DNA of 64,000 nucleotides from Micromussa lordhowensis (taxonomy: Eukaryota; Cnidaria; Anthozoa; Scleractinia; Lobophylliidae), in NCBI GenBank assembly GCA_964020085.1, contig OZ026600.1, forward strand, positions 19,040,194 through 19,104,193, in the 5' to 3' direction. The position numbers were made by a program, and so were the translations under genes. The notes beneath the pieces are model-generated. The model had not been told where the DNA came from, made no database searches, and worked only from the letters and a program-made list of their open reading frames with translations. Below, one piece after another: positions 36,901-64,000 of this stretch; positions within the stretch are counted from its first letter, which is position 1; every line of letters starts with the position of its first letter.

Positions 36901-37317
36901 TTTGATTAGCGTAGTACGCGGAAAAGAACTACGCCTCCATGGAGGTTCGCTTAAAAGCTTGACGGAACATACCACTCTTTTAACATTTCTTTGATAAGCA
37001 AGCAGGCAGTAAAGTAACCCTTACTTAGGTCTGCCTCAGTCATAGCCCTTTTTTTGAAATTAAACGAAATTGGCAAGAAACTGCAAGACTTCAGCTTACC
37101 CGAAACTAGATATTTCAGCCTTCAAAACATTTCCAGAAACAGAGTCGTTCAGGTTTCGCGTCTATTACATAAAGAAAGTGCATGTAGCTTTAGCAATGAA
37201 ATCATAATATGTAATGGTAATAGGACTGAGTGGAGTCCAATTCGGTCTGTAATCATACAAGTGATAACGAAAGTGAACATACAAGTGAAAACGAAATCGA
37301 AGTCCGATTTGTTTATC

Positions 37318-37348
<31 letters not shown>

Positions 37349-37434
37349 ACGAAGTCTTATTACCAATTAATCATAAAAATTACAATTTCCGAGAAAAGAA
37401 GAATAGCCAAGTTATCATGTCACTCTGAAATTGA

Positions 37435-37466
<32 letters not shown>

Positions 37467-39250
37467 GATTGGCTTAAACTGTCCGATAACAAACTGTCCG
37501 ATAACAACTTGGCAAGTGAATTAGTGGAAAATAAGAGTTTTTTAAAACAAACACAATCGAGGAAATTCAGTGTAACTTTTATGATTAGAACTGAAAATAG
37601 AGTATAAAGTAAAAGAAATTAATGATCGTCGCTGCATGGCCTTATACAGAAGTCAAACGTAAGCCAGCTGAACTTGAAAGCAACACCCACCTGAATGAAA
37701 GAAATAAAATCCAAACCCTACCTGGTTATTGAATGCATCCACTAAGTCATTGTATTCGTCGGATCCTTTTACTGCTAAATTGGGATCCCATGGCAGGTCG
37801 ATAAGTGCAACATCCAAGTGAGCATCAATTGAAATGCGACTGTTTTCTGCAAAATCATAACCTGTTATTGCAAGTAATTTTGGTGCCGAGTTTCATTTAG
37901 AAATAAGTGTCTATTACAGGCGAACATCCCGTAGCGTGGCACCCTTAGAGCAAAAAGTATCCACGTTGGAGAGAAGTCCTCTTGTGGAAGTTAAAAATGT
38001 AGCGTTTGTATATCACCTGGACCATGACCAAGTGCCTCTTTAAAGAGGTCTCCGTCTACGTCGTCTACGGGAGGTACTGCTACAGGAAGCTTGACTTTGA
38101 TAAAACAAACCCCAGTAAATGAACCGGAAAAGGGAGAAAAACCCCCTACAAAATTGAGCCATTTTTAAATACTGAATGTGTTGACTGCATGCTAGTAATT
38201 CTATTCCTTACCAGATCAAGACAATTTAGAATCTGTCATAAAGAACCTTTTCATGTGATGGTTTCGTGGTGATCGACAAGTCAAGCAGACATTGTCTCGT
38301 GGGCCTTTTCCATGCAGTATTTCTTTGACTATTGCCTTTTAACGGGGTGTGGGGTGGGGAGGCCCGTCATGGTTAGATCGCTCGACTACGGATTGAGCGG
38401 TCCAGGTTCGAACCCTGGCTGTATAAATGGGTACCTGCGAATTTAATGCTGGGGGTAACCCTGCGGTGGAGTCCCACGCAGACGGGTGGGGGAGTAGAAA
38501 TACTCCTTGTCGCTTAGTGCTACAGAAAGACTTTACCTACCGAAACAGAGTACCCGTTTTAGACCATTCAAGAATCATATTTACCTGTCATGTAATTCCA
38601 AGGCGTTGCGATCGTCTTTAGTTTTTGATACCAAATTGCTAGGTTGTCAAATTCAACAGCTGGGCCGCTGTCCCGATGTGACCCCAGTTCGATACTTGTG
38701 GATGTAGATCTCATTCCTGGCCTCCTCTCGCACCTAACATAATCAGAGCCTACTTTTTTCCCGTCTATGTAGACTGTAAGGCCACCATCTGGAAGATCAG
38801 GATCTTTCCAACTGAATCCCAGATAAAACCATACATTTACAGTGGCTGGCCGGTCAAAGCACGAACAGACGTAGTCATCGGTCTTAACAAATATTCTTAA
38901 TTTTCTTTCAGAAATTCCAACGACAAATCCATTCTTTTGCTCATTTACAGCATTTCCTAGAATGTAAGTACGATCTTCAAACTGAGCGAGAGTTCCAACG
39001 ATTTTGAGAAACACGGAGACTGTAAGACCATTGGTACATTTGGAAGGTTCTACAGGACATTCAGCCTTAACCACAGGCTCGAGAATAATCCGACCTGAAT
39101 CTTTCGTTCGTAGTCCTGTTCCCGTTAGAGAGCGAGTGACTTCCACGTCATGCTCAGATCTGCCTTGCTTCGAAGTTATGTTGTCCACTATGTTGTCTGG
39201 AAGATTGAAGTCCCAGTAATGGTTCGCGTCCTCGTAAAAGGAATATAGCG
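20332..39250 (-). CDS. Polycystin-1-like receptor/channel gene, copy A (near complete)
   Basis: Nineteen exons, all GT-AG: 39250-38585, 37846-37722, 37161-37100, 36270-36122, 35622-35320, 34084-33785, 33210-32914, 32204-31911, 31077-30432, 30113-29928, 29774-29649, 29278-29111, 28978-28727, 27573-26839, 26290-26054, 25785-24719, 23704-23442, 22566-22414, 21983-20332. They give about 2,560 residues: LamG, SEA, five FN3, REJ-like, GAIN with GPS, a first transmembrane helix, PLAT, transmembrane helices, TOP domain and a polycystin channel. Phases agree at every join except 30432 to 30113, where a small exon is probably missed. This is the polycystin-1 (PKD1/PKD1L/REJ) family: surface receptors that assemble with polycystin-2-type channels and may act in mechanosensing, ciliary signalling or fertilisation. 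Which role applies here is unknown. A candidate signal-peptide exon is at 40990-41034. Confidence 0.9.
22414..23704 (-). CDS. Copy A linker, transmembrane helix and start of TOP domain
   Basis: Exons 23704-23442 and 22566-22414. The first carries SLTFFTLFMLVLGIVCYGSRD, the helix entering the channel half. The second holds FWTWMTNIFAPGIY and GMPRIRQLRIRQ, the conserved entry to the extracellular TOP (polycystin mucolipin) domain. The acceptor at 22567 (after TCTCTAG) was preferred to one 7 nt upstream because only it keeps the frame. The donor at 23441 (GTGAAT) is non-ideal but in phase. Confidence 0.7.
22865..23025 (+). mobile_element. tRNA-derived SINE, family 2, copy 1
   Basis: The head TTTGATAGCTCACTTGGTAG resembles an A box region and GAGGTCATGGTTGGAATGCC a degraded B box, followed by TTCAGGCCTGAA and the CAACTGCTTAAGTTGTG body. 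The inverted fragment ACAACTTAAGCAGTTGTG at about 22805 lies just upstream. Intronic in copy A. Related copy at 35745-36010. Confidence 0.6.
24402..24431. repeat. Perfect 14-bp palindrome
   Basis: CTTAGTATCTGGGT and ACCCAGATACTAAG are perfect reverse complements separated by CA. Intronic in copy A between 24718 and 23705. Function unknown; could be the core of a decayed foldback repeat. Confidence 0.6.
24719..25785 (-). CDS. Copy A PLAT domain and following transmembrane helices
   Basis: A 1,067-nt exon. The first about 115 residues form a PLAT/LH2 domain (HQYEITISTG, TAKVTMVFYGSSGNSGP, VSVSTSLGTLHHAYIWHDNSG with small variations, SWFLDYVVVRRRDNG, FVCNQWFC). Polycystin PLAT domains are cytoplasmic and bind lipid and calcium. 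After a linker with basic residues come at least four hydrophobic helices, including CLCVVLMAMLANAMFF, LVIAPINFLIVVIF, YIAWFLCFATAVTSATVVFF and LVILAAVGAIVI. Ends in phase 2. Confidence 0.85.
26054..26290 (-). CDS. Copy A GPS motif and first transmembrane helix
   Basis: A 237-nt phase 0-0 exon. It contains LLCLCNHLTSFGGG, a canonical GPS with the H-L/T cleavage tripeptide (Leu-Thr bond at plus 26239/26240) and the flanking Cys pair shared with the preceding exon. About 25 residues later comes a strong transmembrane segment (FGVLLTIIFVFLFYIIAIVL) and the basic stop-transfer KRADTRDQAK. Autoproteolysis at this site would leave a non-covalently held extracellular fragment, as in adhesion GPCRs and polycystin-1. 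Confidence 0.85.
26839..30113 (-). CDS. Copy A GAIN-type region, five exons
   Basis: Exons 30113-29928, 29774-29649, 29278-29111, 28978-28727 and 27573-26839, all joined in phase 0. The first four code amphipathic helices (KRATQLAIGVLKSFEL, IKQVIITKLREVEIHDLAEL, LQDMTDLLVNISSRREVMEL, IIDTLTSLKLLRRVMRTMIE), as in the helical half of GAIN domains. The fifth (735 nt) is the beta half: VISSRVNFYHWDSSADF, LEIDLRGESGE, and CRFWSHDEGKWITEGCK just before the GPS. Exon 28727 joins directly to 27573, so the 1.15-kb intron between them holds no coding sequence. Confidence 0.8.
27650..28330. mobile_element. Decayed foldback element in copy A intron
   Basis: Inverted segments GCAGAAGCTTATCACC (about 27930) and AGGTGATAAGCTTCTGC (about 28189) pair. 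Nearby are remnants of the 2030-2520 family: GCATGGGAGAA at 27670 and GGGGGAATCTAGACCGC, CAATACCGATTTCAGCC near 28247-28290. Together they suggest nested old foldback insertions. A 62-residue minus ORF at 28405-28593 next to it has no support as an exon. Confidence 0.45.
29617..29642 (+). repeat. (GATT)n microsatellite abutting a splice donor
   Basis: Six to seven copies of GATT. On the gene strand this is (TCAA)n beginning six bases after the donor GTTAGT of the exon ending at 29649. The donor has T at +3, so it is already weak. Confidence 0.8.
30432..31077 (-). CDS. Copy A FN3 module 5 plus REJ-like segment
   Basis: The exon opens APGGPPDNVSAHNVSPTSIKVHW and holds a full FN3 (GYRVIVM, YQVSVAGFT). 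It then continues as ITCNANPSSGVAVETTFTLSC, LNTPLLYDFMLP, LWYGYSSNAEVVLPPGD and LDVQVCDVWG, the pattern seen in the REJ module of polycystins (C-x-A-x-P-x-S-G, W-x-D, PL-x-Y-x-F). The 3' end was set at a GTAGGA donor (30431), leaving phase 2. The next recognised exon needs phase 0, so a short exon between 30,114 and 30,431 is likely. Confidence 0.75.
31255..31640. mobile_element. Foldback element plus adjacent inverted-repeat segment
   Basis: Left arm ATTGACGTCAGTTTTTTATG ... GACGAAATTT-like and GTGGATCCACGAGG; right arm CTCGGCTATCGCCTCG-facing sequence, ending AAAAACTGACATCAATTTG at 31452. The arms pair over about 90 bp. A second, looser inverted pair follows to about 31640 (TTTTACGATAACAAATGG against ATTTCTGCAGTTATCGTAAAA, CGCTCGCT against GAGCGAGCGAG). 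Intronic in copy A. Confidence 0.6.
31911..35622 (-). CDS. Copy A FN3 modules 1-4, one per exon
   Basis: Four exons (35622-35320, 34084-33785, 33210-32914, 32204-31911), each close to 300 nt and each phase 1-1. Modules 2-4 show the FN3 signature: a Pro near the start, a central Trp (LVTWLH, RSEWDV, SVQWTF), a G-Y/F-x-V strand (GYRVRW, GYQVLL, GFHVYY) and a late Y-x-V (YRVYVAGRS, YDVSVAAFT, YNVTVGAFT). Module 1 is divergent at its start. One-module-per-exon symmetry is the classic pattern for expansion by exon shuffling. Confidence 0.85.
33417..33540 (+). repeat. Interspersed repeat with GACGAAGGGCTAACGCTCGAAACG core, copy 2
   Basis: Second copy of the block at 13750-13870, sharing TCCGAATCTCTTTACGGTGG, CAATTCACATTAT, AGTTGATAAAACCAAAT and ATACTCCCACCGACGCAG with few differences. 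It lies in a copy A intron between FN3 exons, while the first copy lies in a different intron of copy B, so it is a dispersed repeat and not part of the gene duplication. Confidence 0.65.
34085..35319. other. Copy A intron between FN3 modules 1 and 2
   Basis: No coding exon seen. Contains a (GAT)n run near 34488-34506. The small minus ORFs at 34680-34898 and 34953-35279 have no domain signal and no phase-compatible splice sites. Confidence 0.4.
35745..36010 (-). mobile_element. tRNA-derived SINE, family 2, copy 2
   Basis: On the minus strand the head reads GATAACTCACTTAGTAGAGC (A-box region), CCGGTATCGCAGAGATGGGT and B box GGGTTCGAATCCC (35809-35821), then GTTCAGGTCTGAATTTTTTCC and a body ending near CACAACTGCTTAAGTTGTG. 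It is more intact than the copy at 22865-23025. Intronic in copy A. Confidence 0.65.
36122..37846 (-). CDS. Copy A SEA domain, three exons
   Basis: Exons 37846-37722, 37161-37100 and 36270-36122. The start ISIDAHLDVALIDLPWDPN, the helix EYNDLVDAFNNQ, the block VSGNVLKAEISSFGELDGKA and the strand TAQMYVRLYRSP follow the SEA fold. The end is ILNCSANDD. Same phases as copy B. The middle exon is only 62 nt. No obvious self-cleavage site. Confidence 0.75.
37216..37370. mobile_element. Foldback element with GTCCAATTCGGTCTGTAATCAT arms
   Basis: The arms GTCCAATTCGGTCTGTAATC and GATTACAGACCGAATTGGAC are perfect inverted repeats, extended by AATGGTAATAGGACT against AGTCTTATTACCAATT. The loop contains repeated GTGAAAACGAAA-like units. 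Intronic, 55 bp beyond the 62-nt SEA exon of copy A. Confidence 0.75.
38350..38520 (+). mobile_element. tRNA-derived SINE, family 1, truncated copy
   Basis: Head with GTCATGGTTAGATCGCTCGAC and B box GGTTCGAACCC (38405-38415). Body GTATAAATGGGTAC and AATGCTGGGGGTAACCCTGCG as in the 2770-3046 copy, then GGAGTAGAAATACTCC. The last part of the body is missing. Intronic, about 65 bp from the LamG exon of copy A. Confidence 0.65.
38585..39250 (-). CDS. Copy A LamG/concanavalin-type exon
   Basis: A 666-nt phase 1-1 exon. Key blocks are NHYWDFNLPDNIVDNITS, GLTVSVFLKI, RTYILGNA, GFVVGISERKLRIFV, WFYLGFSWKD, GGLTVYIDGKKVG, IELGSH and FDNLAIWYQ. The pattern fits the LamG-3 family. It aligns with copy B 10784-11494 with conserved cysteines (CPVEPSKC here; CPVNPSLC in copy B). 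It would sit at the N-terminal tip of the receptor. Confidence 0.85.
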
Positions 39251-40740
39251 CTGCAAAATAAAGGAACAGTGGTTAAATATTGGTTGTTGGTTTACTGCAA
39301 TACTTTGTACTCAAAGGATAGCAATTGACAGTAAACTGATCAAAATTGGTGGAAGGAAAATAATCCAAAAATATCCAAACCTTTATCCACGATAACTGCT
39401 ACTCTTAAGATCCTTTTTAGGTAACGTTTCTTACAAAACACATTGTAAAATATAAATGCAAAAGCTATGGTCATATGTAATCATTATGGTGTAGTGGTGG
39501 CTAAAATCGAAGACTGGCTGAGACCGAGGTTTGTTTTCAAATCCGCAACCTAAGGTTAAAACAAAAACTACATCAAGCCTACACAGAGCTTCGAGAACCT
39601 GCTTACACTTACTCAGTTCACAGACAACTGGATAAACAAATCGAAGGCCAGTCGAAGACTCATAAAAATTGAGGTACTTTTACACACAGCACAGTCAACA
39701 TGTTAATATTTGCTTCGCAGAAGTTAATTTTGGTGATAATTTGTTTTCTTCAACGAGAACGTTGCCAAACAAAAGATTTAATGAGTCAGATAATGGCGCT
39801 GCACGTGCGTTATAAATCTTGGTAGATTTAATTTCTTGACCGTTCTCTGCAAAACTCGACGTAAAATGACCACGTCTTGCTATTTTAGTCTGGAATTGCC
39901 CGTTTATCTCATTTGGATCTAGTCTAAAAATGGCATGTACACTGAATAAAGTTCAGTAATTGTGAGTCTTGTATACAAGGTATCATATCCCTATAAATTC
40001 AGCTAATCATGGTAACCTGTCTGAACTTCATGAAAATGACGTCAGGCTTAAAGAAGCTCCGCAATAGATTCTAAGCGGAATAGGGCATCTGCGAAGAAAA
40101 AAGCTGAAAAAAATGGCAACGATATTGCATCTAAGTAAAAGTCTCGATTCCACGAAATGCAGAAATACATTTACTTCCGATGATGACGGTCTATCGTTTA
40201 TTTAGCTATTGAAATCAATTCCAGATCTGCCATATTTTGACCCACCTGCTCGTAATGAGGCGTTTCATTAAGGCAGTCTTTAATTAAGCACTACCCCGCA
40301 GAGAGAGCGGAGGAAAAAAGTCGGCCTAATTGACGGTTTTATTGTGCATCCAAACTAGAAATTTCATAAAAATAAAGGAAATCGATCTTCGTTCTCCCCT
40401 GAATTTGAATAAATTGTTCGTTGTACCGTGGGAACTAGTGATATATGTAGCAGTAATTCGTTTTATGAAAGTTCATTTAAGTTCATTATGAAATGGCCAA
40501 GGACAAAACACTATTCTTCTTCCTTACATGAATAGTTCTAAAATGAAACTGTTACCTCTTGTGACACCGTCACGATAATAAATTAACCACTTTGGCAAGT
40601 ATCCGCATCTTACCTTCAACCTAAAAGGACAATCTTTTCTTTTTGCAGTTTGCACTTTGCAAAATCAAGGGAAAATAGGTTATAGATTTTAAATTTCTCC
40701 AGAATAGCCATACGTTGTCACTTCACTATGAAGATTCTCA
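39251..40740. other. Copy A 5' intron, no gene seen
   Basis: AT-rich with no supported exon on either strand. Contains two copies of AGTTCATTTAAGTTCATTATG-like sequence near 40470. If the candidate signal-peptide exon at 40990 is right, this whole stretch is its downstream intron. Confidence 0.4.
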
Positions 40741-44131: not shown

Positions 44132-44285
44132 ACGAACACTCGCCCGAAGTCTGAAGTTCTAGAACGTAAATATTGTGGTAATTGAAAGGTTTGACATCGA
44201 ACTGTGTTAGTCGTCGTTCGATTCGTGGCCGCCATTTTTGTTGTCAAGTCGGGGCCCGCGGAAACTGGTTGTCCTTGTTTTGACC

Positions 44286-45530
44286 ATGGCGGGTCCACCA
44301 GTCGGTTTTCCTGTTCCTCAGATGCAAGAAGGGTTAGACGAGCGTGAAGCCCTAGACTGTTTTACTTTGGATTACATCGATTATTGTACTGTGATGGGTT
44401 GGTTCGAACCAAAAGATGGATGTAAATTTGACGATGCCAGTGAGAATGGAAAGGCGCAGTGGAAGAAACCAAGCCTATGTATGTCTACATTGCGAGCTAC
44501 TCTTCCATCGAAGATGAAGAGGTTGATTAACCCTAATAACAAGACACTTGGACTGTCTAATGCTGATAAAGGTAATCCAGTGAAAGTTATTCAAGCCCTT
44601 ATTAGGCGATTTGGTGGTAGTGTGAGTGTTCAAGCTGAGCGAACGAAAATGGGTCGTATGTTTCAGACTGAAGGAGAATCAATTAGTGCCTGGGAGTGTC
44701 GGGTGGTGGAACGAGCTAAATATTGTGAATATGGAGACTTTGAGGATCAAGCATGTCGAGACCGTTTCATTGCTGGTTTGGTAGATGAAACTTTGCAAGG
44801 AAAGTTGAACACGAACGGTCATCGCAATAAGGAAGGCAACATTGTGGAGTTTCGTGCTGTAGTTGAAATAGCTAAGAACTATGAATCCTCAACTGATGCT
44901 CGACGTCTTATGAGACAGGTCCGTGGAGATCAAGAGCAGGTAAACTGGACGGAGAAGGCACCCAATTTAAAGACAACAAATTCGCAGAACCCAGGTCGAG
45001 GTCGTGGTAAAGGCTCCTCCCACAAAGAGTCAGAGTGTAACTATTGTGGAGCCATACCTACTCACCCTAGAGAAAAGTGTCGTGCAGTTCGCCTTAAATA
45101 TGTGTGTGGAAAGTGTGGTAAAGAAGGGCATATTGACAGAAAATGTTTGAGCAAACCTCAAAGTGTGAATGCTGTAGATGAGTTTGGTTCTGCTTGTGAG
45201 CAAGAAACATATCATCTGTTTACTTTGGACATCCACTCTGTGAGAACTGTGTCAGTGCAGAAAGAAAAAAAGTTCTTTGCAGCGATCAAACTGTCTGCAG
45301 CGGGAAATGTTTTCGCTTGGAAAACACTGCAACTAGACACCGCCTCAACAACCAACACACTTGCAGTTGATGATCTCCTGGAAATGGGACCAGCAGGTTT
45401 TGACATCAATCACCTAATCAAGCCCTCTCATGCCATTCTGCACACGTATGGAGGAGGTGTCATAAAGCCGGTGGGGCAAATAGAGTTAGTTTGCGAGAGG
45501 AAGGGCCCCATCCGTATTGCATCCGAGTGA
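44286..45530 (+). CDS. Gag-protease polyprotein of element B
   Basis: The ORF starts best at ATG 44286 (MAGPPVGFPVPQMQ). It codes a capsid-like region (LTSE-free, with PVKVIQALIRRFGGS and FQTEGESISAWECRV, as in Ty3/Gypsy Gag), a basic linker, then two zinc knuckles. The first is C-x2-C-x5-H-x4-C (CNYCGAIPTH) and the second a canonical C-x2-C-x4-H-x4-C (CGKCGKEGHIDRKC). A retropepsin segment follows (LQLDTASTTNTLAVDDLLEM). The active-site triplet reads DTA where DTG/DSG is usual. The ORF stops shortly after LVCERKG, so the C-terminal part of the protease domain is missing or out of frame. Confidence 0.85.
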   Translation: MAGPPVGFPVPQMQEGLDEREALDCFTLDYIDYCTVMGWFEPKDGCKFDDASENGKAQWKKPSLCMSTLRATLPSKMKRLINPNNKTLGLSNADKGNPVKVIQALIRRFGGSVSVQAERTKMGRMFQTEGESISAWECRVVERAKYCEYGDFEDQACRDRFIAGLVDETLQGKLNTNGHRNKEGNIVEFRAVVEIAKNYESSTDARRLMRQVRGDQEQVNWTEKAPNLKTTNSQNPGRGRGKGSSHKESECNYCGAIPTHPREKCRAVRLKYVCGKCGKEGHIDRKCLSKPQSVNAVDEFGSACEQETYHLFTLDIHSVRTVSVQKEKKFFAAIKLSAAGNVFAWKTLQLDTASTTNTLAVDDLLEMGPAGFDINHLIKPSHAILHTYGGGVIKPVGQIELVCERKGPIRIASE

Positions 45531-48471
45531 CCCAAAAGAGAGTGCTGAAGAGTCAAAAGTGTGCCAGCTTGAATCAGTATCAAGCCCTAACCATGGAAGA
45601 CAGGAGGAAAGTGTTACTGCCGAAAGAGGCAACGGGCCAGCCCCGCTGAATGAAAAGCTCACGACCGGTGATTCACCTGCGAGTCCCTATGCAGGCAATG
45701 GTGTACGTGACGACATAACTGAAGTTCACAACACTGCTGCGATTGAAGCCCACGATAAGCAAGTCATGAGTGTGGCTACTGAAATGGGCGTCTCCCACGT
45801 ACCTGTCCCTTGGGGAAAATTGACTAAGGCCATCGTCATGGAGGCTTTCAAAGATGTCCATACAGGGTTAGGAACTTTGGGTCCGCCCCTACACATCACT
45901 GTGGACCCCAATGTTACTCCAATCCAAGCTCATCCCCATCGGTGTCCCGTGGCAAAAGAAGCAAAAGCAGCCGAGGCCATCCGTGATCTAGAAAAGCAAG
46001 GTGTCCTGAAAAAAGTCACTGAACCCACCGCGTGGATCTCTAACAGTGTCTACAGAGAAAAACCTGACGGCAGCATACGTGTCTGCATCGATCCCAGCCA
46101 GACCATCAATAAAGCCATTGAGGTACCAAAGTACCCCATTCCTACCGTTCACGAGTTATTACCCAAGTTGAACAATGCAAAAATCTTTTCCTGCGTAGAT
46201 GTTTACAAGGGGTTCACAAATGTTGAGCTAGATGAAAGTTCATCCTATTTAACGACCATGCACACTCCAATTGGCAGATACCGTTGGTTACGTATGCCTT
46301 TTGGGGTCAGCCTAGGGCCAGAAGAGTATCAGCGAAGGCAGCACGAAGTGTTGGAAGGCTTAACTGGTGTTGACATCTTAGTTTTTGGAAGAGGCGATAG
46401 TATTGAGGAGGCAGAGAAGGATCATGACATTAACTTGTGGAACTTAATGCTGCGTTGCCGAGAAGTGAATCTCAAGCTGAACCCGAAGAAATTTCAGTTA
46501 AAAGTAAAGCAGGTTACATGGATGGGCCATCTGCTCAGCAGCGGTGGAATTACTCCACACCCAGACCGTGTCCGGGCCATTGTGGACATGACCCCGCCAC
46601 AAGATGTTAAAGGCGTTCAGCGGTTCTTGGGCATGTGCAACTACTTGTCTCGTTTTGCACCAAATCTTGCAGAAATTGTGAAGCCGCTTACTGGGCTGAC
46701 ACACGTGGACGCAGTCTGGTCGTGGTCTTCCCAGCATGACAAAGCCTTTAAGACAGCGAAAAGTCTAATCGCCAATGCCACAACATTGAAGTTCTTTGAT
46801 GTAAAGAAACCCTGTGTGTTACAAGTAGATGCCAGTGACACAGGCCTCGGGGGAGCCCTATTACAAGATGGCCAACCTGTAGCTTTCACAAGTTCAACGT
46901 TGTCAGCAGCTGAGGTTAACTATGCCCCCATTGAAAAGGAATGTTTAGCCATCAAAGTAGCCTGCACGAAGTTCTACCAGTATCTTTATGGGAAACAAGA
47001 TGTAATTGTGCATTCCGATCACCAGCCCTTAGAAACCATTTTTAAGAAGCCCTTGAGTAGTGCCCCTAAGGGCAAGAAGGGAAAGGGGATGCTTCAGCTT
47101 CAACCGTTCAAGTTCACAGTAGTCTACAAGAAGGGAAAGTACATGTACTTGGCGGATACATTGTCTAGAGCTGCCTTAAATAACCCTGCTCCCTCTGGTC
47201 CACAAGAGGAGGTGTTTCAGTGTGATGCTGAGGATACTCAGGAGATGTTCAGAGTGGAGCTGGAGACCTTGGAACTAGACTCCCCTGAGATGTATCCTAG
47301 CACAATAGAAGAAATCAAAGCCGAAACGAAAGTTGATTCTACCCTATCAGTTTTGTGTGAGTTCGTGGCTCATGGATGGCCGTCTGACAAATCGCAAGTT
47401 CCAACAACACTCCGACATTACTATCCGCTACAGGATGAACTAGCGCTGTACAATGGTGTGCTGTACAAGTCACACAAAGTCATTATTCCCCGGCAGCTGC
47501 AGTCTACTATGCTGAAGAAACTTCATCAAAGCCATCAGGGCGGTGAGAGTATGGTTCGTCGTGCGCGAGAAGTCATGTATTGGCCAGGAATGCAAGCTGC
47601 AATTCTCCAAGAAAGTGCCAATTGCTCATTGTGTGCTAGCTACAATTCAGCACTTCCTAAAGAACCAATGCTGTCCCACGAAATACCGCAGGGCCCATGG
47701 AAATTCATTTCACAAGATTTGTTCAAGCATGGAGGGCGTTGGTATGCCGTTACTGTTGACCACTACAGTGACTGGTTTGAAGTTGATCTGTTGAACAATG
47801 ACATCACTGCTGCCAATGTCATCTCAGTAACAAAGGCACACTTCGCCCGCTATGGTGTACCTGATAAATTTCTGTCAGACAATGGCCCCCAGTATATCTC
47901 TCAGGAGTTCTTGAGCTTTGCCAAGGCTTATGATTTCAAGTTAATCACCCGCTCGCCTTACTACGCTAGAGCCACCGGTAAAGCAGAATCTGCTGTTAAG
48001 GAAGCCAAGAAAATGTTGAAGAAGTCGAATCTCCTCACTGGTCTTCTTGACCACAGGAACACTCCGCCCCAGGGCATGACTTACTCCCCAGCACAGAGGT
48101 TGCTCTGCCGACGAACGAAGTCCGTTTTGCCAATGTCCGAGTCATTGTTGAGCCAATCTGTGCCGCCAGTAGCAGCCGTGCGAGATGAGCATCTGGGCTG
48201 GCGGGCTAAAGCCAAAGCTCACTATGATAAAACTGCTAACAGAGACTTGTCCCCTCTGTCACCTGGACAACCTGTGTACACCAGACCAAGTGACCATCAC
48301 CGTGGTGAACAGTGGAGATATGGAGAAGTCTTAGAAGAAGTAACACCCCGTTCGTACGTCGTCAGAACGTCAAACGGGCTAGTTAGACGTAACAGGACGC
48401 ACCTGAGACCTGCTGAGCGATCGACGCCATGTAAGCAGCAAACCCTGGAACCCGTCAACAGACAGTGGTGA
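45490..48471 (+). CDS. Pol polyprotein of element B (RT, RNase H, integrase), RT motif deleted
   Basis: Open in the +1 frame relative to gag from 45490, overlapping gag by about 41 nt; no ATG is needed if expressed by frameshift. RT shows CVDVYKGFTNVELDE, YRWLRMPFGVSLGPEEYQRR and WMGHLLSSGGI, but the catalytic aspartate-pair motif is gone: GLTGV runs straight into DILVFG at about 46366-46380, an in-frame loss of about five residues. RNase H keeps its acidic residues (QVDASD, EKECLAI, HSDHQPL). Integrase has H-x3-H...C-x2-C (LHQSHQ to NCSLC) and D, D, E in QDLF, LSDNGPQ and GKAESAV. A frameshift near 48,440 separates the last segment, which continues in the next frame to 48607 with GRPIRPPKRLDL. 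Confidence 0.9.
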   Translation, partial: FARGRAPSVLHPSDPKESAEESKVCQLESVSSPNHGRQEESVTAERGNGPAPLNEKLTTGDSPASPYAGNGVRDDITEVHNTAAIEAHDKQVMSVATEMGVSHVPVPWGKLTKAIVMEAFKDVHTGLGTLGPPLHITVDPNVTPIQAHPHRCPVAKEAKAAEAIRDLEKQGVLKKVTEPTAWISNSVYREKPDGSIRVCIDPSQTINKAIEVPKYPIPTVHELLPKLNNAKIFSCVDVYKGFTNVELDESSSYLTTMHTPIGRYRWLRMPFGVSLGPEEYQRRQHEVLEGLTGVDILVFGRGDSIEEAEKDHDINLWNLMLRCREVNLKLNPKKFQLKVKQVTWMGHLLSSGGITPHPDRVRAIVDMTPPQDVKGVQRFLGMCNYLSRFAPNLAEIVKPLTGLTHVDAVWSWSSQHDKAFKTAKSLIANATTLKFFDVKKPCVLQVDASDTGLGGALLQDGQPVAFTSSTLSAAEVNYAPIEKECLAIKVACTKFYQYLYGKQDVIVHSDHQPLETIFKKPLSSAPKGKKGKGMLQLQPFKFTVVYKKGKYMYLADTLSRAALNNPAPSGPQEEVFQCDAEDTQEMFRVELETLELDSPEMYPSTIEEIKAETKVDSTLSVLCEFVAHGWPSDKSQVPTTLRHYYPLQDELALYNGVLYKSHKVIIPRQLQSTMLKKLHQSHQGGESMVRRAREVMYWPGMQAAILQESANCSLCASYNSALPKEPMLSHEIPQGPWKFISQDLFKHGGRWYAVTVDHYSDWFEVDLLNNDITAANVISVTKAHFARYGVPDKFLSDNGPQYISQEFLSFAKAYDFKLITRSPYYARATGKAESAVKEAKKMLKKSNLLTGLLDHRNTPPQGMTYSPAQRLLCRRTKSVLPMSESLLSQSVPPVAAVRDEHLGWRAKAKAHYDKTANRDLSPLSPGQPVYTRPSDHHRGEQWRYGEVLEEVTPRSYVVRTSNGLVRRNRTHLRPAERSTPCKQQTLEPVNRQW

Positions 48472-53848: not shown

Positions 53849-56800
53849 CTACAGACTACCTGTTTCAATAATGTACCTTAAGAGTTCTGGAAGTTTTTCT
53901 GATTGAAAAATCATCTTGTGGCCATGATGCCCATTTAATTCAACAAATTTAATTCCATCAGCATCAGGCCGCCTGGAACTCTTGGCAGTTTCATATAACT
54001 AGAATAAAAAGATGTAAGAAAAGCATCATATTAAACTGAGCAGACAAGGACAATGGGAGTTTTGAATAATTTTTGTTCAGTACTATCTGACTTGTAGCGC
54101 TTATAAACCAAACCCTTGTAAAAAAGTTTCCGGGATCCCAGCGGGATCCCGTAGAGGTGGCCAGTTTTCCCGGTGGGACCCTTCCAGTGTAAAATTCCCA
54201 CTGCACATCTCTGCAAGAATCCTGCCAAGAAATCTGTCCGGGATCCTACCATTTCAGCGATGGTTACTGGAATCCTGAGAGGTAATCCGATCTATGGACT
54301 TCTGATTAAAATCATGCAGAAATTTTTACAAGGGAGAGTTCTTAAATGCAAATTAAGTTGAAATGGGGTAAGCAACTCCAATAAATTATTACCTTTTTTC
54401 CCAGTTCAAATGATATAATCTCATCATCACGGTCGTGAAGTATTAATATTGGACAATATACATCTGCTAACCTAAATGACAATGCAACATAAAACGTAAA
54501 TACATGTATGAAGGGTCCATACTCTACAGCAAAATATCATTCACAGAAAGATGTCACAAATACCAAAAACATTTTCACTCTTTACCAAAAACGTTACCTA
54601 CCTCTTGTCAGTGCGAAACACTTCCTTTACTTCATCCAGAACAGTCTCATTGAAATATGGAAGAAATCTAAAAGGCTACAATACAAAATTCAAAGAAATA
54701 TGTGAACAGGGCAATGCACTTCAGGAAATTGGAATTTTCACCAAAATCAAGGCCTTACAGGCATCACAGTTGATCATCGTCACATGACCAAGGCTTCAGA
54801 AGAAGCTGAAAGCTCATGAAAATCTATTGTAATGTAAGTAATTTATCTTAAAGATTTCTCAAGTTTAGCATGTAATGCCCTCAATACATGTAGATGAATT
54901 TCCAATGTTATGGAACAAGGAACTTAACACCCTCTGTTCTTTTCCTGAGTAGTCTGAGATTCAACACAGAAGATTCCTATACTGATGATTTAGCACAACA
55001 GGCAAGGTATATTGTTTATGACTGGTCATTGCAAAGTTAAAAAATTTTATGTGGCCGGTACAGAGTGCCTACTACTAAACACATGTATGAACAACAACCA
55101 ATGAGTCAGACACTGGTGCACCTGATTTTGCCCAGAGGTGCTGAACCTTCACTGGGTGCTGCATGACCAAAAGGATCTTTATCCATGGGAACTAGTTTTA
55201 ATTTTAAACCAGGTCAAATGAAGACTAATTTTTCACTGGCTGAGTGAAACGAAATAAGTGAAAAATGTCACCGCTGGATCCTGGGTGTAGGTCATGAATG
55301 TGACCTATGGGGCAGGCAGTTGTTTTTGTTGCACCCACCATTGCTGACTTTCCCACCCATCCACCCACCCAAAGATTTTTATTTTTTTATACAATGCCAG
55401 TATAATGTACAAGCCTTGAGCATTTTTCATTATTTCGAGTCTTAAGCATAGTGCTACCTGTACCCGTATTAGCTTGGATTTTGCAATAAAGGTCATGTGG
55501 TGGCGTCATGGTTAGCTTGACATGGCTACCAGTGGTGTGTGAGGAGTCTACTTACCACAGTAATTGGGTGCTTGGCCGCTCCTTCCCACACATTGTTGAA
55601 GGGTGCCTCCAGGATAACTCCTGAGAGGTGAGACCCTATTAAAAATGTAAACTTGACATCAACTGAAGTGGCCGTAACAGTAAGTTTAGAAATTCAGGAC
55701 TTGATGTGTTTAAAAAATTACCTTTATCGCATAATGCTTTTGCCACACCACCAGCTACCCTAAAAAGTGATGACAAGTAAACAAAAAATTGCAACCAGGA
55801 ATGAGTACCAGCTGTGAGCTGGTTAGTGAAAAACAGCTATTTTTAAGGAAATGCAAAGGCTGAACACAGCGGGAATGACACAAGGAGCTACATGTACATG
55901 TAGGTATCTCAATATTTTTTTATTGCCCTCTAGCCTAATTAATACGAACAGTTTTAAGAGTTTCAATTCCAAATCTTGCAAGCTGCACCAAAAGATAACT
56001 AATGGACAATCTAAAAGTAGCTGGTTAAGAAATGTTCTGGCTACCTAGTGAGGTTGCAATGAAGACAGTCTTGAGTCCTGATAAGCCATAGTTTATAAAC
56101 CACCGCGCTTACCCTGAACCTAGTGAGTGGCCCCAAATAAACAGAGGTGCTTCAGGGCTTAGAGACCTAATCCACTGCCATGCAGATATACCATCCTGGA
56201 TAAGTCCTGTACAGTACAAACAAAGCTACACTGTACGTGTACTTATACAAAATGACACATACAAATGTAATAATAAACAACAGTACTAAACGTTTTCTTA
56301 AGGGAGCTGTCAAAATTTACAAAATTAATAGCAAGTGATTACTTGCAAGAATGTAACAGGTCAGACAAAACAATAATATACTGAACAAAACTCATGGATC
56401 ATGAAATCAAACACCGTGAATCAACTGAACAGTAAAAAACCTGCCAGGGCTGTATATAGCCAGAAAAAATTATGAGTGATGCAAGGTCTGTGAAAAAAAT
56501 TATGACTGATGCAATGTCCATGGTTAAATTCTCTTCCCAGTAAAGCTGTTTATGATGACTTGTAAACAATAAGAATAAAAAAATTACCGAGGCAAGTGCG
56601 TTGCTTAAACTTCCTGTTTCTTGCTACAGCCCTGAGTGCCGATGCCTGTTTACTGTTTACAAAAAAGTCACCACATGCTTTTGATGTGATCATGTCCAGG
56701 GCATTCCTCAGTTCTCTTTTAGTACTTTCAATGGGAAAATTTTATTCATTAAAGTTCTTCCAGTTAAGCCAACTTAATTAAACAACTTGTATGTAGCACG

Positions 56801-59800
56801 GTAAAAAATACAACAGCTACTTTTAAATGTTTGGACCGACATAATTATAATTACCAAGCTCAGATGGCTTTCCTTCAGAGTCCCCAAAACCTGACATAGA
56901 AAATCAACAGAATTGTACATCAACATAAAGTTTTCAACTATAGGTTAATCAATCATTAAGTTTTCAAAATTGAAGGGTAACTGTGTTTGGTTGTTGATGC
57001 CTTCAAGGAAATTTTTTTTTTTTATTCACAGTGTACTGGACATGCATTGCCGGATTTCATACGGTGGGAGCCTGGGTACAAGTCCGTGTATTATGGGATT
57101 AACAACACAAGACCCATATATTCAGAAAGAGCACACTGAGCTTTACAAAATCCTTAAGTTTCGTGTTTATTGGGCCAATATTGAACAAGATACAGCCATT
57201 CAAAAACGTCAAAATTTGCAAAGAAATGTATGGATCTCCGGACAAGTGTCCGGCAATCCATACATTTGTTACTAAATTTTTAAGTTTTTGAATAGCTGTA
57301 TCTTGTTCAATATTGGCCCAATTAACACAAAACTTAAAGATTTTGTAAAGCTCAGTGTGCTCTTTCTGAATATATGGGTCTTGTGTTGTTAATCCCATAA
57401 TACACAGACTCTTACCCAGGCCCTCACGGTATGAAATCCGGCAATGCGGTAAACATTATAAACATGAATTTGTCCTACCTCGATAATCAATTGTTACTAC
57501 ATGAAAACCAATAGATGACAAAAGCTGCATGGCATAAAAAAAAATTAAAATTAACATACACATCAGTCTAATTATCAGTTAGCTGAAAGCACCATGTTGG
57601 CAAAAAAGCATCTACTGTACAGCGTATTGTAATGGAGTGAAAAAAAAAAAACAGGTTAAAAAATTAATGTTGAGGCAAACTACAACATAGGGTCACAGAA
57701 AATAATTATATACTCTGACTCAGTGACTCAGGCAGATTCCAAATATTTAAACCAAAATCAACCCGCATGTATCTATTATAATTCATTGTATACAGTCAAT
57801 ATATTGTGCCTGAACTACATGACAACGTAGCATATTTATTAAATTTAAATTAAGGAGTTCTGACTCCCCATGGATTGGTTGTTAGTCAATAGGCTCTTTG
57901 CATGACCGTGTCACGTGACCTCGTCAATCATAAAGTTTTGAAAATTTTGAGGCCACTGACTTTTAGGTGCACAATTCACCAACATACAATTCACCAGTGA
58001 CACCCATTTAAACATGAGCATCTTGGTGCTGGAGACACTGTTTCTGTCAAGGGGTATCTAGCACAAGCTTAAGAACATCCACCAAGAATCCACCCCAGAC
58101 TGGACTCAAATCCAGGCTGCTTGATACAGGCCATGTCTTACCAATACTAACTTAATAAAATTTATGTGCACCTCTGACAACAATAATTTATTATTACAAA
58201 CCTTGTAAAGTCCAATTCTGTGGCCAGTCCCTCTAGTAGACATGAAATACAATAATCCACAAAATAATTAAATTTCTGACATGATAGTAAACACCTATTT
58301 TACTGCAAATCTAATTAGCAAGAGAGTTCATTTATCTTAGGAATGGTTTCATGGCTCGGCATAGGCACAAACAGTTATGTTTGCCCATTTAATTTCATCA
58401 AAAGCAAACAGAGACTTTTTGCCAGAAATGTTTTGCTTACAATTTCAGGTGGTATTTCACATAAGAATTCCTCTTGCAATAATTTGCATTGTTTATGTCC
58501 AAATCAGATCCAAATACATAACTTGTGCCTTTAGGCCAAATAATAAATTTGATGTTCAAAGCTAAATTTGACATTTTCTGTGTAATTCTGTGGTGTCTTC
58601 TGCCTTCTTCTGGACATCAGTCATTCAGAGTTCTTTGTCAAATATTTCCTGAACTACATGTAAGTCAATAAAGCAATAAAGTCACTTAAAGCTCAAGCCA
58701 AAGCTTGGACATGTACCGAACTATGAAGTTCTCCCTCTTAGTTGTGAGGAAAGTTTGAGAGCACAGATTGCTTATTGTAGAAACATCCACAAATGTAGGT
58801 ATGCAATACATGGAAAGGGCTATGAACAACGCAGCTGCAACCCTTTGCATGAGTTTCGTGATTGTTTATTCATTCTGAATATAGCTTTTTTAGCAGCATA
58901 GTAACATACAATAATAATACTAAATATAATAATTTAATAATAATATTTAATGAGGGAACCCAACTCGCCATAGGGATTTTCACTGGGGCCCTCAAAATCA
59001 TGCATGCAGAGGACAATAGAAATGTCTGATCATCAAAATTGTAAATTCATTATGTTAGAACTACAATTATGGAACCTCCACTACCGGCAACTGTATACAA
59101 TGGCCACCTCTCTACACCTCCATCTTCGCTGAACAAACTTGGTCAATAAAGGATTTATTATATGGCATAAAGAACACCATTTTCTTGTGGGTACAGCAGG
59201 CAATCTTCAGTGGGCAAGATAGCCCTATCTTGCCTGCTCAAGTAGCTAATCATAGAACAGAATTTGGCTTATCTTGCCCTCAAAAGGCTAGTCATATGGT
59301 ACCATTACCTGGAGTAAGCATTGCCGTGAAAATACAAGAATACTGGACTTCCATCTTTGAGGTGGGAATGCTTGTCAGCTTTGCTGTCTTGCATCTTGAC
59401 AACATGCCGACCAGGAATATCCCTGAATGTTGGAAGTTACATGTGCAAAGTAGAAAGAGTAGCTTTTAATCAGTGTAACTTAACATCTAGTAGACCAAAA
59501 CACCCAAGATTTTTCATGCTAATTTAGAGAGATTGAACATGAATCACAAATTGGCATGTTTGACTCGATGCCATCATTATCTTTCTGACATCATGCAAGT
59601 TTGTTCACAGAGGCTTAATGCTACTCCAAACCTTTGCGGGACTACATTTGCCAAACTTCATTTTTTTAGCCAAATTAGAGCTTATTCATTAAGGTAACAT
59701 TTTCCAAAAAATGAAAATAAAATATTAAAATGTATGCAAACTATTGGGAAAAAGAGATTCTTTAATAAAAGTTAATAAACAGTGAAGATGTCATTATTCC

Positions 59801-62800
59801 CAAAAGACATGGACTCCTCAGCAACCTTTTCATGGCAAACGGCTTAATCCAGAGATCATATATCAAATACTTTCAATTTTAGATTTCATGTCCATCAAGA
59901 GTACCTCCTTGAAAACACGCTTCAATGGCAATTGCTCCTCAGTTTCTTTTTCTTTCGTTACACATCGGTTTCCTTGTGTTTTGCCCATTATTGCTGGCCA
60001 CTGGCCTAAATAACGCGTGACTGTGACTGGTGGCTTTTTGAGTTGACATATCCCTCTGGGAAGGCGTGATATGTTTATAAAGATTTAGAGGGCAAAAACT
60101 TGCACTCGTTTTTCAAGAGAATCCCTCCTCTTTAAATTAATTAATAGGGTACGTAGAATTGACGGTTTTCCGTGAAATTTGGCCAGAACATTCACTGATA
60201 GATAAGGAACAAAAGGGTGTTGGCGAGTTCTTTTATTTTAAATACTTTTGTCCTAGTGACCTCTAATGCAACACATTATGCACGGAACTTGATAGATCTA
60301 TAAAGAGATAACCAATAGAAATAAAACAAAATGCTGAAACACTTGAGAGATTGATGCTTTGAGATTAACACTGCACATTCAAGTGATTGCATTTGATACC
60401 TGATTAATTTGCTTAAATGTCAGTTGGTCGCTTTGGCATTAACAGCTTCTGCCGCGCCTCAGGAAAGCAATTGGCAAACCAGAATAAAATTTTATTGAAT
60501 TCTACATTTAATTTCATTGAAAACATATGAATACACTGTATGAATATGAATTTTTTCTGGAGGACACCAGCAAAGGTTTGGAGTAACCTTAAAATCATCA
60601 TTCATCTAATAAACTTCAGCACCTTAAATGCCAGAATGGCATCAAGCAGATTTGTACACTGTAAATAACTGAATCAAAGTTTAGACCAAAAGCTTTACTT
60701 TTGACCATTTGAGTGGCCAAAGCATTATTTTAAATTAATACCACTGATGACAGATTCTTGCAGATTAAATACTTGCAGTGAGACAACGAGAAAAACCATG
60801 TGAGGCTGTGTATGCTTGGAGTGCCCTGTAGCTGACCTACCATAAACAGGCACATAACGTGACACTGAAATTTGACTCAGATACAGACTTGATGGATCCT
60901 GTGTACTATAGGCATCCACAGTCGAGTGTCAATCGATACCCTTAATCGTCATCACAATCGTTACTTGATCAATATGCTGATCAATACTCAGTCGACAATC
61001 GATCAACGCTCGATCAACGGTTGTTCGATAGTCAGCCAAATGTCAACCGACTCCTATGTATTGATCAGAGATGTCAATGGAGTGTTGACCGAGTGACAGC
61101 CAAGGTGTCTATGGAATGTCAATTGAGTATTGATTGAGTGTCGATTGAGGGTATCAATAGAGGGTGTTAATTGACAGTCGACCATGGATACCTACACATG
61201 ATCTGACTTGACTCAATTTTGGATTTGACTTGGCCAACTGTTAAACTCTTTTAAGTACTATTATAAAACCTAAAACTGCCCACAAGTCTTTCGAGCTTTC
61301 CAGTGACACTACCCCTGCTTGAGAAAACTACCTTTTTTATTACCTACCAGTGATACCCTAATGTAAAACAGATCAAAAGACCTACCATGCTCCCAGTTTA
61401 CCAGCCTGACCAGAAATATAAAAATTGACAGTATTTTCTGGCAAACCAAAAGAAACAGGATTGGACAAATCTTCAAATGGATTCTTCACTTGGTAAGATA
61501 TAAGCAACAACAAAGCAGTAATCAGTACTGAATTCCACACAGTTAAGTCATCATAATGAATTTTAATAATAGACTTAATGCTCTTTAAACAGTCTTTTAT
61601 GCACTTACACGGATGTAAATAAATCACTAGTTCCCTTGCTGCTGGTGATGAGTACATTACTATCACACATACAACATACAGCAGCAGAATTGTACCCAAT
61701 GCAATCTTGACCAAAAACCTGAAAAATGAAATAACAAAAATAACATTCCAACCATCAGAGAAACAGGTTTTGTTTCTGGGGGGAGGGGAGGGAGAAACAG
61801 ATTTTGTTTCTGGGGGGGAGGGGAGGGAGGGAGGGAGGGAGAGGGAGGGAGGGGGAGGGAGGGGGAGGGAGGGATTGGCAGGGAAGGAAGGGGTTGGCAG
61901 GGGTGGGAGGAGATCAGGACCTTCAAAAAAGTGGGAAGGTTACCTGTAAAGACAGTTTGAAAAATGCCACAAGAAAATCTATTTATTGGGCACAGCTCAA
62001 GTTCACCTTTGCCCCAAGAGATCCAGTAATGAATGTAGACTCTTTTAGATCAATGACAGGTGATGCACTTTCTAGCCAAGTCATTCACTGCATCATCCCA
62101 GCTTAAACCACAGTTTAATGGCTGTGTAGCAGAATTATGATATTGAATAATGAAAATTGAGGCCAAGAAACTTAGAAATAGCATACCCCAACTAGGATTT
62201 CCGATGAGGTATTTTGTCACCTGTCAAGAATGTTTGTCTTGGTACAAAGTCTTTGGAACTGGGATCTTAAAAAGTCTTCAGAGATCTTCAGTGATGTTCA
62301 GGTTTTCTTTGAAAGTCCTGGCACTCCCAGGATAAACATCTCACATGTACGTGTCAGAGCTGTCGTTAAGGGCGGTTACCCGTCACACTTGTTGCATCTG
62401 AGTATGCTTGATTGGCCCTTGATGCTACGGATGAACTTGCCTGTTGTCAATACGATTCACCCATAGAGTAACACGTTTGTTATGGGTGTGAAGATCAAGG
62501 CTACAGGTGAATCAAAACTTAATGACGGCCCTGTGTGTGACTTAGATTCTCTGATTTTCCAGGAGAGTCACCATTTACTTCTTTAGCTACCCTAGAGAAA
62601 GGTCCAAAATTTATCTCCATGTGAGGGGGCATTTGCAATTTTTGTACTCTTCACAGAATCAATCCCCTCCTATTTGGGACGTGGGGTGGCCAGGGGAAAG
62701 GGTGGAGGGGCGGGGGGAGGGGGGGGCACCGGGGTTAATTTTTGTAAGCTTTTAGAAACTCTTTTTACTGACTTACCAAATTAGTGAAATGATTCCAAAA

Positions 62801-63059
62801 ACCAGCGATGATAACAGACTCCTAAACAGTAGTAAAAGAAAACTTTAACATTAATTTTAGTCTAAGAACGATGATAGAACTGCAGAGTGATGGACTTTGG
62901 CCAGTGACTGAACTGACAACTAAAGTCACATCTCAGCGGATCTCGTTTACAGTGTTACCTTGGTTGCTCTTTCTTATCAAAGTCATCATTTGCATCTTTT
63001 TCTCTAATTTCCTGATTAGCTGCTGTTCTCTTAGTTCTTCGCCTGATTCCTTCAGACAT
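53849..63059 (-). CDS. ABHD12: ABHD12-like serine hydrolase (lysophospholipid/monoacylglycerol lipase)
   Basis: Complete gene of 14 coding exons, all GT-AG and phase-consistent: 63059-62959, 62821-62777, 61718-61609, 61488-61386, 59422-59309, 58232-58202, 57524-57479, 56890-56855, 56206-56113, 55759-55722, 55635-55556, 54675-54602, 54471-54393, 53998-53849. The product is 366 residues. A basic cytosolic N-terminus (MSEGIRRRTKR) precedes a hydrophobic membrane anchor at about 36-72, then an alpha/beta hydrolase domain: oxyanion HGNA (152-155), VVTIDYRGFGDSEG, nucleophile elbow GHSLGSG with Ser223, Asp306 in HDRDDEI, His344 in GHHGHKMIF. In vertebrates ABHD12 is an ER membrane enzyme that hydrolyses lysophosphatidylserine and monoacylglycerol. 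ABHD12B is the alternative orthology, since both vertebrate genes descend from one ancestor. Residue roles are by family alignment. Confidence 0.92.
57044..57450. mobile_element. Long foldback element in ABHD12-like intron
   Basis: Near-perfect inverted repeat of about 400 bp: GCCGGATTTCATACGGTGGG and CCCTCACGGTATGAAATCCGGC at the ends, then TATTATGGGATTAACAACAC against GTGTTGTTAATCCCATAATA, and CCCATATATTCAGAAAGAGC against its complement. The apex is GATCTCCGGACAAGTGTCCGG. Lies 30 bp from the exon at 57479-57524. ORFs of about 100 residues on both strands are mirror images of the same palindrome and not genes. Confidence 0.85.
60930..61195. repeat. Imperfect GTCGATTGAG-type repeat block in ABHD12-like intron
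   Basis: The left half carries many ATCGATCAAC, ATTGATCA and CAATCGA units. The right half carries the complementary TCAATTGAGTATTGATTGAG and TGTCGATTGAGGGTATCAAT. Together they form a diffuse inverted repeat of short 9-11 bp units with outer ends near CAATCGATACCC and GGGTATCAATAG. No ORF. Origin unclear. Confidence 0.55.
61770..61880 (+). repeat. (GGGA)n purine-rich microsatellite
   Basis: A polypurine run of GGGA/GGGGA units, preceded by two copies of AAACAGRTTTTGTTTCTGGGGGGAGGGGAGGG. It lies in the intron about 50 bp upstream (gene sense) of the exon at 61609-61718. The proline-rich and glycine-rich ORFs here are artefacts. Confidence 0.9.
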
Positions 63060-63240
63060 ACTGTCCGTATATTTCCCCCGTTGAATCACCGCTTTCATAA
63101 CTCTTCTTACCTCATGTACGATGTCATGAAAATAACGCTGGGAAACTGGTAACTAAAAAAACAAAATGGCGGCCTCTTGTTAATCTGCACAGTTTGTTCT
63201 TCGTTGAAATTGTGTCAAGTTTATCGATTTTCTTTGGAGG
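63060..63240. promoter_or_regulatory. Putative bidirectional promoter ABHD12-like / GINS1
   Basis: Only 181 bp separate the two start codons (63057-63059 minus, 63241 plus). Both 5' UTRs and core promoters must fit here or overlap the neighbouring first exons or introns. No TATA box is apparent. The segment includes GGCGGCCTCTTG at 63167, a possible initiator-type or YY1-like motif. Bidirectional use is inferred from spacing. Confidence 0.55.
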
Positions 63241-63315
63241 ATGTTTGGTGATAAAGCACTTGAGCTCGTAAAGGAACTGAAAAGATCCATGGATGGCACT
63301 CTGCCGCCTTATAAT
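63241..63315 (+). CDS. GINS1: GINS1 (PSF1), first coding exon only
   Basis: A 75-nt exon from ATG to a GTAAG donor codes 25 residues: MFGDKALELVKELKRS then a GTLPPYN end. It aligns over its full length with the start of animal GINS complex subunit 1 (the MF-x-x-KA-x-EL-x-x-EL and L-P-x-N positions). GINS1 is part of the heterotetrameric GINS complex that, with CDC45 and MCM2-7, forms the replicative CMG helicase. Later exons are beyond the right edge. The short length leaves some risk, but head-to-head placement next to ABHD12, as in human, strongly supports it. Confidence 0.8.
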
Positions 63316-64000
63316 GTAAGATATTGGTTTCTTTTCATTCAACAAATTTTGGCGGGAAACTTTTCGTCCATGTTTTCTGGTGAAGTTATTTTCAGATGAT
63401 AGTACTGATGATCGCTTCCAAGACCGGCTCGTATTTTTGGAACGACCTGTTTGTTGGGTTGAAGTCGAATAAGCCCCAATATAAAGGTCAAGCGCAAGCA
63501 ACCTAAGCTAATTATATCTATAATTTAGGCTAACCATCGCCGAAGCCTAAGTGCCAGGTAGATCGACTCACTCGAACCACAGTCGATAGTAGAGGAGTAC
63601 GTGCGCGAACTTAAAAATCGATTTTTAAAACCAGCACTCTTTAGCCTGCAAAACACCGCGCCCTTCCGAAACACTAGCCAAGGAACTGCAGCTTTTTCTC
63701 ACAATCTACCGAGACTATCGCAGCCTCTAGGTCAACAAAATATTTTGCTAATCAAACGCCTCTTCCTGGAAAAAAAAATCAGAAAAGGCCGAGAAGCAGC
63801 TGTGATCCAGGGTGTAGATTTATAGATTAACCTGTCAGAAAATCAACCAATCAGAGAAGCATTTTCCAGTCATTTGAGTATGAATTTCCAGTAGACTGAT
63901 ACATTGTTACGAAACAAATGTATGGGAAATGGAAACGCACCTCGTCTATGGAAGATTTGAGATATTATTTCAGTTTCAGAAATGTGTGAAGATTAATGCA
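63316..64000. other. GINS1 first intron (partial), no second exon seen
   Basis: No sequence resembling GINS1 exon 2 was found before the window ends. The plus-strand ORF at 63601-63825 has no GINS similarity. The minus ORF at 63124-63501 overlaps the GINS1 exon and promoter and is a shadow. Confidence 0.5.

Follow-up and report, generated by a model that had tools for sequence, protein, structure and literature searches.

Gene pair at the right end of the window

The stretch analyzed here, referred to as the window, is 64,000 bp of the scleractinian Micromussa lordhowensis (contig OZ026600.1, positions 19,040,194 to 19,104,193). At its right end, an ABHD12 gene on the minus strand and the first exon of GINS1 (PSF1) on the plus strand are arranged divergently, with 181 bp between their start codons (63059 and 63241). 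An initial annotation had described this pair as conserved from this genome to human and had argued from the tight spacing for a true bidirectional promoter. Its gene identities and its 181-bp distance were both confirmed by the evidence below.

The ABHD12 gene is complete (63098/63059–53849), with 14 coding exons and a stop codon at 53849. Each internal boundary has AG before and GT after it, and the reading phase is unbroken over 379 codons. The open reading frame (ORF) encodes 379 amino acids (aa) from the ATG at 63098, or 366 aa (13 residues fewer) from the ATG at 63059, which was the start chosen in the initial annotation. The latter start, MSEG, was present in three of the six relatives compared (P0001, P0002, and P0009), and the N-termini of the other three differed from it. 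Judging from the sequence, the in-frame ATG at 63098 may be used as an alternative start, with a gap of 142 bp between start codons.

The ABHD12 protein matched PF12146 (Hydrolase_4) in Pfam (1.7e-16). The columns of the Ser-Asp-His triad (GHSLG nucleophile, Asp, and His) were invariant in all 12 aligned sequences, including a presumed human ABHD12 sequence with its presumed residue numbers. A search of the PDB returned nine matches, all of them bacterial-type hydrolase chains and none named ABHD12. The coral protein may act as a lysophosphatidylserine lipase.

Two intronic features of this gene were also recorded. Intron 7 contains a near-perfect foldback (57044-57447) of two 201-nt arms that are 91% complementary and separated by 2 nt, with the look of a foldback or miniature inverted-repeat transposable element. 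In intron 2, G-rich purine tracts (GGGAGG-type repeats) were seen by eye at 61760-61880 and 62690-62730.

When the 25-aa peptide of GINS1 exon 1 was searched against the PDB, PSF1 chains were recovered with a best E value of 5e-4 and with residue 1 aligned to residue 1. At E values up to 10, eight of the 11 matches were PSF1, counting 6raw_H (deposited as "IP07275p" and presumably Drosophila Psf1), and the other three were designed proteins. All 25 residues were identical to the starts of P0121 and P0122 (Desmophyllum PSF1), start to start, and both proteins carry on with ED exactly at the exon 1 junction of the window. The peptide alone had no Pfam match, which is unsurprising at a length of 25 residues. 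A degenerate pattern for GINS1 exon 1 likewise had no match in collections of viral and genome contigs, in which animal DNA is not expected. No GINS1 exon 2 was recognized by eye in 63316-64000, and the remaining exons lie outside the window. The P0122 model (Desmophyllum pertusum) enters a fibronectin-type III stretch after approximately residue 47, probably through an annotation fusion, and therefore only its start is GINS1.

Linkage in other animals

Linkage was assessed by searching for identical base-pair sizes among the contigs carrying each protein in the tables of ABHD12 and GINS1 matches. These tables hold the best 120 of 441 (ABHD12) and of 1430 (GINS1) matches, and a species missing from them gives no information. 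The input comprised 72 of 120 ABHD12 rows and 76 of 126 distinct GINS1 rows; rows without a contig, most short contigs, P0117, and P0093 were left out, and, judged by eye, no species common to both lists was lost.

Both genes were carried on one contig in four of the six species named in both lists: Desmophyllum pertusum (P0002 and P0122, 993,920 bp), Physella acuta (P0018 and P0225, 432,794 bp), Rhopilema esculentum (P0022 and P0162, 14,788,415 bp), and Pomacea canaliculata (P0017 and P0226, 29,527,706 bp; ABHD12 first in each case). All four size equalities fell within a species, with no cross-species coincidence among the 72 x 76 rows. Given that their contigs are short, the linkage in Physella and Desmophyllum is strong and physically close; for Rhopilema and Pomacea, the evidence goes no further than a common contig of large size. 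The linked species include a scyphozoan (Rhopilema) and a gastropod (Physella); Desmophyllum is a coral and Pomacea another gastropod. The initial annotation had called for the pair to be mapped in other cnidarians and in bilaterians, and in both it was found on shared contigs (Desmophyllum and Rhopilema; Physella and Pomacea).

For human, two published deletions are informative. One of 59 kb removes ABHD12 exon 1, GINS1 exons 1-4, and "both promoters", as worded in a figure legend (PMC10557151), and one of 186 kb spans ABHD12 exons 1-4, the whole of GINS1, and part of NINL (PMC11172263). Taken together, the two deletions imply that the same two genes are adjacent and head to head at human 20p11, in agreement with the human arrangement given in the initial annotation. 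The human start sites presumably lie approximately 17 kb apart, in contrast to 181 bp in the coral, and the tight coral spacing is therefore not kept in human. Of the proposed conservation from this genome to human, the linkage thus stands; the tight shared promoter is not supported as worded, the legend naming two promoters and the presumed distance being wide.

The pair is thus linked in Cnidaria and Mollusca by shared contig and in human from published accounts. Immediate adjacency and divergent orientation can be seen directly in the coral and follow by implication from the human deletions; the contig sizes of the other species show linkage only. The ABHD12-GINS1 linkage was probably present in the cnidarian-bilaterian ancestor, the two genes having been neighbors since early animals. 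Three points weigh against a simple picture of conservation. Equal contig sizes show a shared contig and not adjacency or orientation. In Gigantopelta aegis the two genes are on different contigs (120.6 and 91.7 Mb), which suggests that the link is dispensable. In Diadema antillarum they are also on different contigs (4.81 and 0.46 Mb), which could reflect contig breakage. The best reading is that the linkage is old and not universal.

The intergenic region as a candidate promoter

The divergent starts lie less than 1 kb apart, the distance used to define a bidirectional promoter gene pair, as measured on start codons. Two motifs were located around the GINS1 start (Table 1). The first, AAAATGGCGGC, corresponds to the YY1 consensus. 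The second, TTTGGCGGGAAA, is presumably an E2F-type site and is the sole exact match of TTTSGCGSGAAA in the window. In a sponge, a published study places the peak of a YY1/Kozak-like motif approximately 10 bp after start sites.

Conservation of these motifs could be tested because the contigs of P0124 and P0127 carry ORFs that extend without interruption from the sequence upstream of GINS1 into its first exon. P0127 was collinear with 63113-63232 of the window, with HVRCHE, AGKLV, and WRPLV in order; even one shared five-letter word occurred in only 145 of 10000 shuffles. The element ATGGCGGCCTCTTG was encodable by P0124 at -80 and by P0127 at -79 from the GINS1 ATG, and was encodable anywhere in 1 of 5000 (P0124) and 0 of 5000 (P0127) residue shuffles. 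TTTGGCGGGAA, the first 11 of the 12 bases of TTTGGCGGGAAA, was encodable in P0124 at intron offset 33 (32 in the window); among 20000 shuffles it was encodable anywhere in 84 and within +24 to +42 in 13. P0127 ends before the position of the E2F-like site. The first residues of P0124, PSDIL, resemble the antisense reading of MSEG in the window; on that basis, 226 bp would separate the start codons in P0124. Sharing of a five-letter word was found in 229 of 10000 shuffles.

Several observations weigh against a shared promoter. A second exact copy of AAAATGGCGGC (44228-44238, in addition to 63163-63173) lies beside retroelement ORFs, and the motif alone is therefore weak. The E2F pattern TTTSGCGSGAAA with one mismatch was not enriched (2 seen, 1.25 expected), and the full 12-base TTTGGCGGGAAA was not encodable in P0124. 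A degenerate antisense ABHD12 start pattern arose in 1110 of 5000 P0124 shuffles, and no antisense ABHD12 start was readable in P0127. Head-to-head genes within 1 kb are very common in a sponge, where the sponge study counts 11,379 of them, while a gene-order survey saw no enrichment of short divergent gaps in non-vertebrate animals. Tight spacing alone is thus weak evidence, given how common head-to-head genes are.

Weighing these points, we consider it fairly probable that the coral pair represents a compact divergent promoter zone with two start sites, set on an old linkage that has been partly lost. The region from approximately 63,060 to 63,360 would form a single zone of open chromatin from which transcription starts in both directions. 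In such a zone, the YY1-like element near the GINS1 start would position basal transcription, and the E2F-like site at the beginning of GINS1 intron 1 would make GINS1 inducible with proliferation. ABHD12 would be transcribed at a steady level from this shared zone. Linkage would persist in lineages whose two promoters cannot easily be separated; vertebrates would have loosened it, and some lineages would have lost it altogether. For the true bidirectional promoter of the initial annotation, the spacing held; from that spacing and the conserved motifs we infer that the 181 bp may work in both directions.

A possible, if doubtful, alternative is passive retention through slow rearrangement, in which two independent promoters happen to abut in the coral without any important element in common. 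Linkage absent in two of six species fits this account, as do the wording "both promoters" in the human figure legend and the presumably large human spacing, and the ABHD12 and GINS1 proteins are not known to us to be functionally connected. Against it stand the recurrence of the intergenic stretch and the YY1-like element in other contigs and the physically close linkage on contigs of only 433 kb (Physella) and 994 kb (Desmophyllum). The retained linkage of the pair is compatible with either shared promoter parts or slow break-up. A stronger version of the shared promoter, in which the ABHD12-GINS1 promoter would be one regulatory unit as old as the early animals, its YY1-E2F layout fixed and coupling a lysophosphatidylserine lipase to S-phase expression, and in which vertebrates would have inherited the pair and later separated the start sites, appears unlikely.

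The divergent promoter zone favored here has partial counterparts among described systems. PREPL, presumably a serine-hydrolase-fold protein as well, forms one such pair with C2ORF34. These two unrelated head-to-head genes share a bidirectional promoter on which NRF-2 and YY1 act; that promoter spans 405 bp with a GC-rich core and was experimentally tested, while the coral pair is compared on a YY1-like motif only (PMC2713978). In CDT2-INTS7, a replication gene is likewise head to head with an unrelated gene across approximately 246 bp, and E2F acts in one direction only; that evidence comes from reporter assays in human cells on other genes, whereas the coral pair is known from motifs and spacing (PMC2194621). 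Ancient metazoan microsyntenic pairs (Irimia et al. 2012, as cited in a passage of PMC5429095) resemble ABHD12-GINS1 in that neighboring genes are kept together across animal phyla, and one of their two kinds shares cis-regulatory elements. They differ in that Isl-Scaper and Tfap4-Glis2 involve developmental regulators with enhancers in introns, whereas the coral pair is non-developmental and its starts abut (PMC5429095, same passage).

A literature search that did not cover supplementary gene-pair lists found no paper describing a bidirectional promoter for ABHD12-GINS1 or conservation of the pair beyond vertebrates, and ABHD12, GINS, and PSF1 are not mentioned in the main text of the gene-order survey; an earlier listing in a supplementary gene-pair table is quite possible. 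The pair joins functionally unrelated genes in a linkage spanning cnidarians, molluscs, and vertebrates, compact in the coral and presumably wide in human. The choice between a shared promoter and slow break-up is therefore directly testable across species. The linkage also bears on the human deletions that remove both genes in PHARC patients (PMC10557151 and PMC11172263).

ABHD12 orthology and other features of the window

Among the best 120 of 441 ABHD12 matches, the closest relatives were P0001 (87% identity) and Desmophyllum pertusum P0002 (81%), with Oculina at 75%, Acropora millepora at 67%, and Pocillopora at 65%; each of seven named coral species occurred once. A tree of 38 rows, midpoint rooted and with several long branches, was built from the window protein, a presumed human ABHD12 sequence, and 36 of these 120 matches. 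The window protein was placed with P0001 and P0003, then with Desmophyllum and Oculina, then with Pocillopora, and Acropora and Montipora fell outside. This placement fits a scleractinian of the robust clade.

Cnidarian sequences, together with three further rows, formed one group, whose support of 94/88 falls slightly short of the starred level. A separate group (100/97) united human ABHD12 with two ABHD12B proteins from mammals and three proteins from fish. On this tree the window protein thus grouped with animal ABHD12, and vertebrate ABHD12 and ABHD12B did not split across it. Given that the vertebrate proteins group together, the ABHD12/ABHD12B split is vertebrate-internal on this tree, and the coral gene is therefore most likely a co-ortholog of human ABHD12, as judged from protein sequence. 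PMC3560075 lists ABHD12 among neighbor families analyzed for vertebrate 2R duplication, with 2R-type topologies.

It is very improbable that the window gene is instead an old paralog whose neighborhood resembles the human one by coincidence. Its identity to the presumed human ABHD12 sequence is 37%, below that to five gastropod proteins (47-49%), as such a paralog might show. The tree topology, the 2R-type topologies, and the single occurrence of each named coral all speak for co-orthology, and the same tree holds gastropod ABHD12 genes whose contig also carries GINS1. That the GINS1 exon of 75 bp might be no more than a gene remnant or an ORF arisen by chance, as exon 2 lying outside the window and the lack of a Pfam match might suggest, is hardly credible beside its 25/25 start-aligned identity to Desmophyllum GINS1 and the exact splice junction.

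Table 1 Positions of the ABHD12-GINS1 features in the window
Feature	Position	Strand	Basis or content
ABHD12 exon 1	62959..63098	-	start at 63059 shared with three relatives; ATG 63098 also in frame
ABHD12 exon 2	62777..62821	-	gene model
ABHD12 exon 3	61609..61718	-	hydrophobic, likely membrane segment, judged by eye
ABHD12 exon 4	61386..61488	-	gene model
ABHD12 exon 5	59309..59422	-	encodes FLYFHGNA
ABHD12 exon 6	58202..58232	-	gene model
ABHD12 exon 7	57479..57524	-	gene model
ABHD12 exon 8	56855..56890	-	gene model
ABHD12 exon 9	56113..56206	-	GHSLG nucleophile elbow, Ser236 (63098 numbering); gene model and alignment
ABHD12 exon 10	55722..55759	-	gene model
ABHD12 exon 11	55556..55635	-	gene model
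ABHD12 exon 12	54602..54675	-	gene model
ABHD12 exon 13	54393..54471	-	catalytic Asp320; gene model and alignment
ABHD12 exon 14	53849..53998	-	catalytic His357, stop codon; gene model and alignment
Intergenic region, presumed compact divergent promoter	63060..63240	.	spacing; parts of 63113-63232 conserved in P0127
YY1-like element AAAATGGCGGC	63163..63173	+	its ATG 75 bp before GINS1 ATG
GINS1/PSF1 exon 1	63241..63315	+	25 codons, ATG 63241 to N25, donor GTAAGA
E2F-like site TTTGGCGGGAAA	63348..63359	+	at offset 32 of GINS1 intron 1

Elsewhere in the window, a retroelement was recognized at 44211-48465 (plus strand) from two long ORFs, the first of 438 aa without a Pfam match and the second of 992 aa with reverse transcriptase, RNase H, and integrase domains. 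The copy of AAAATGGCGGC at 44228 was considered as another gene start and rejected, the reverse transcriptase/integrase ORF (Pfam) lying just downstream. Fragments of another retroelement were found at 3860-5495 (plus strand): the segment 4223-4750 encodes an integrase zinc-binding domain, and a neighboring ORF looks RNase H-like by eye.

Polycystin-1-like exons occupy 20338-39272 (minus strand), where a Pfam scan of ten ORFs gave domains that follow one another along the gene as LamG-like (below cut-off), FN3/REJ, GPS (below cut-off), PLAT, and PKD_channel. Two mutually similar LamG-like ORFs, at 10779-11531 (minus strand, just above the Pfam cut-off) and 38574-39272 (minus strand, below it), perhaps reflect a duplicated polycystin-like gene. 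A tRNA-Arg at 2970-3049 (minus strand) was called by ARAGORN and not by Rfam, and a marginal tRNA (30.2 bits) at 35799-35868 (minus strand) was called by Rfam and not by ARAGORN.

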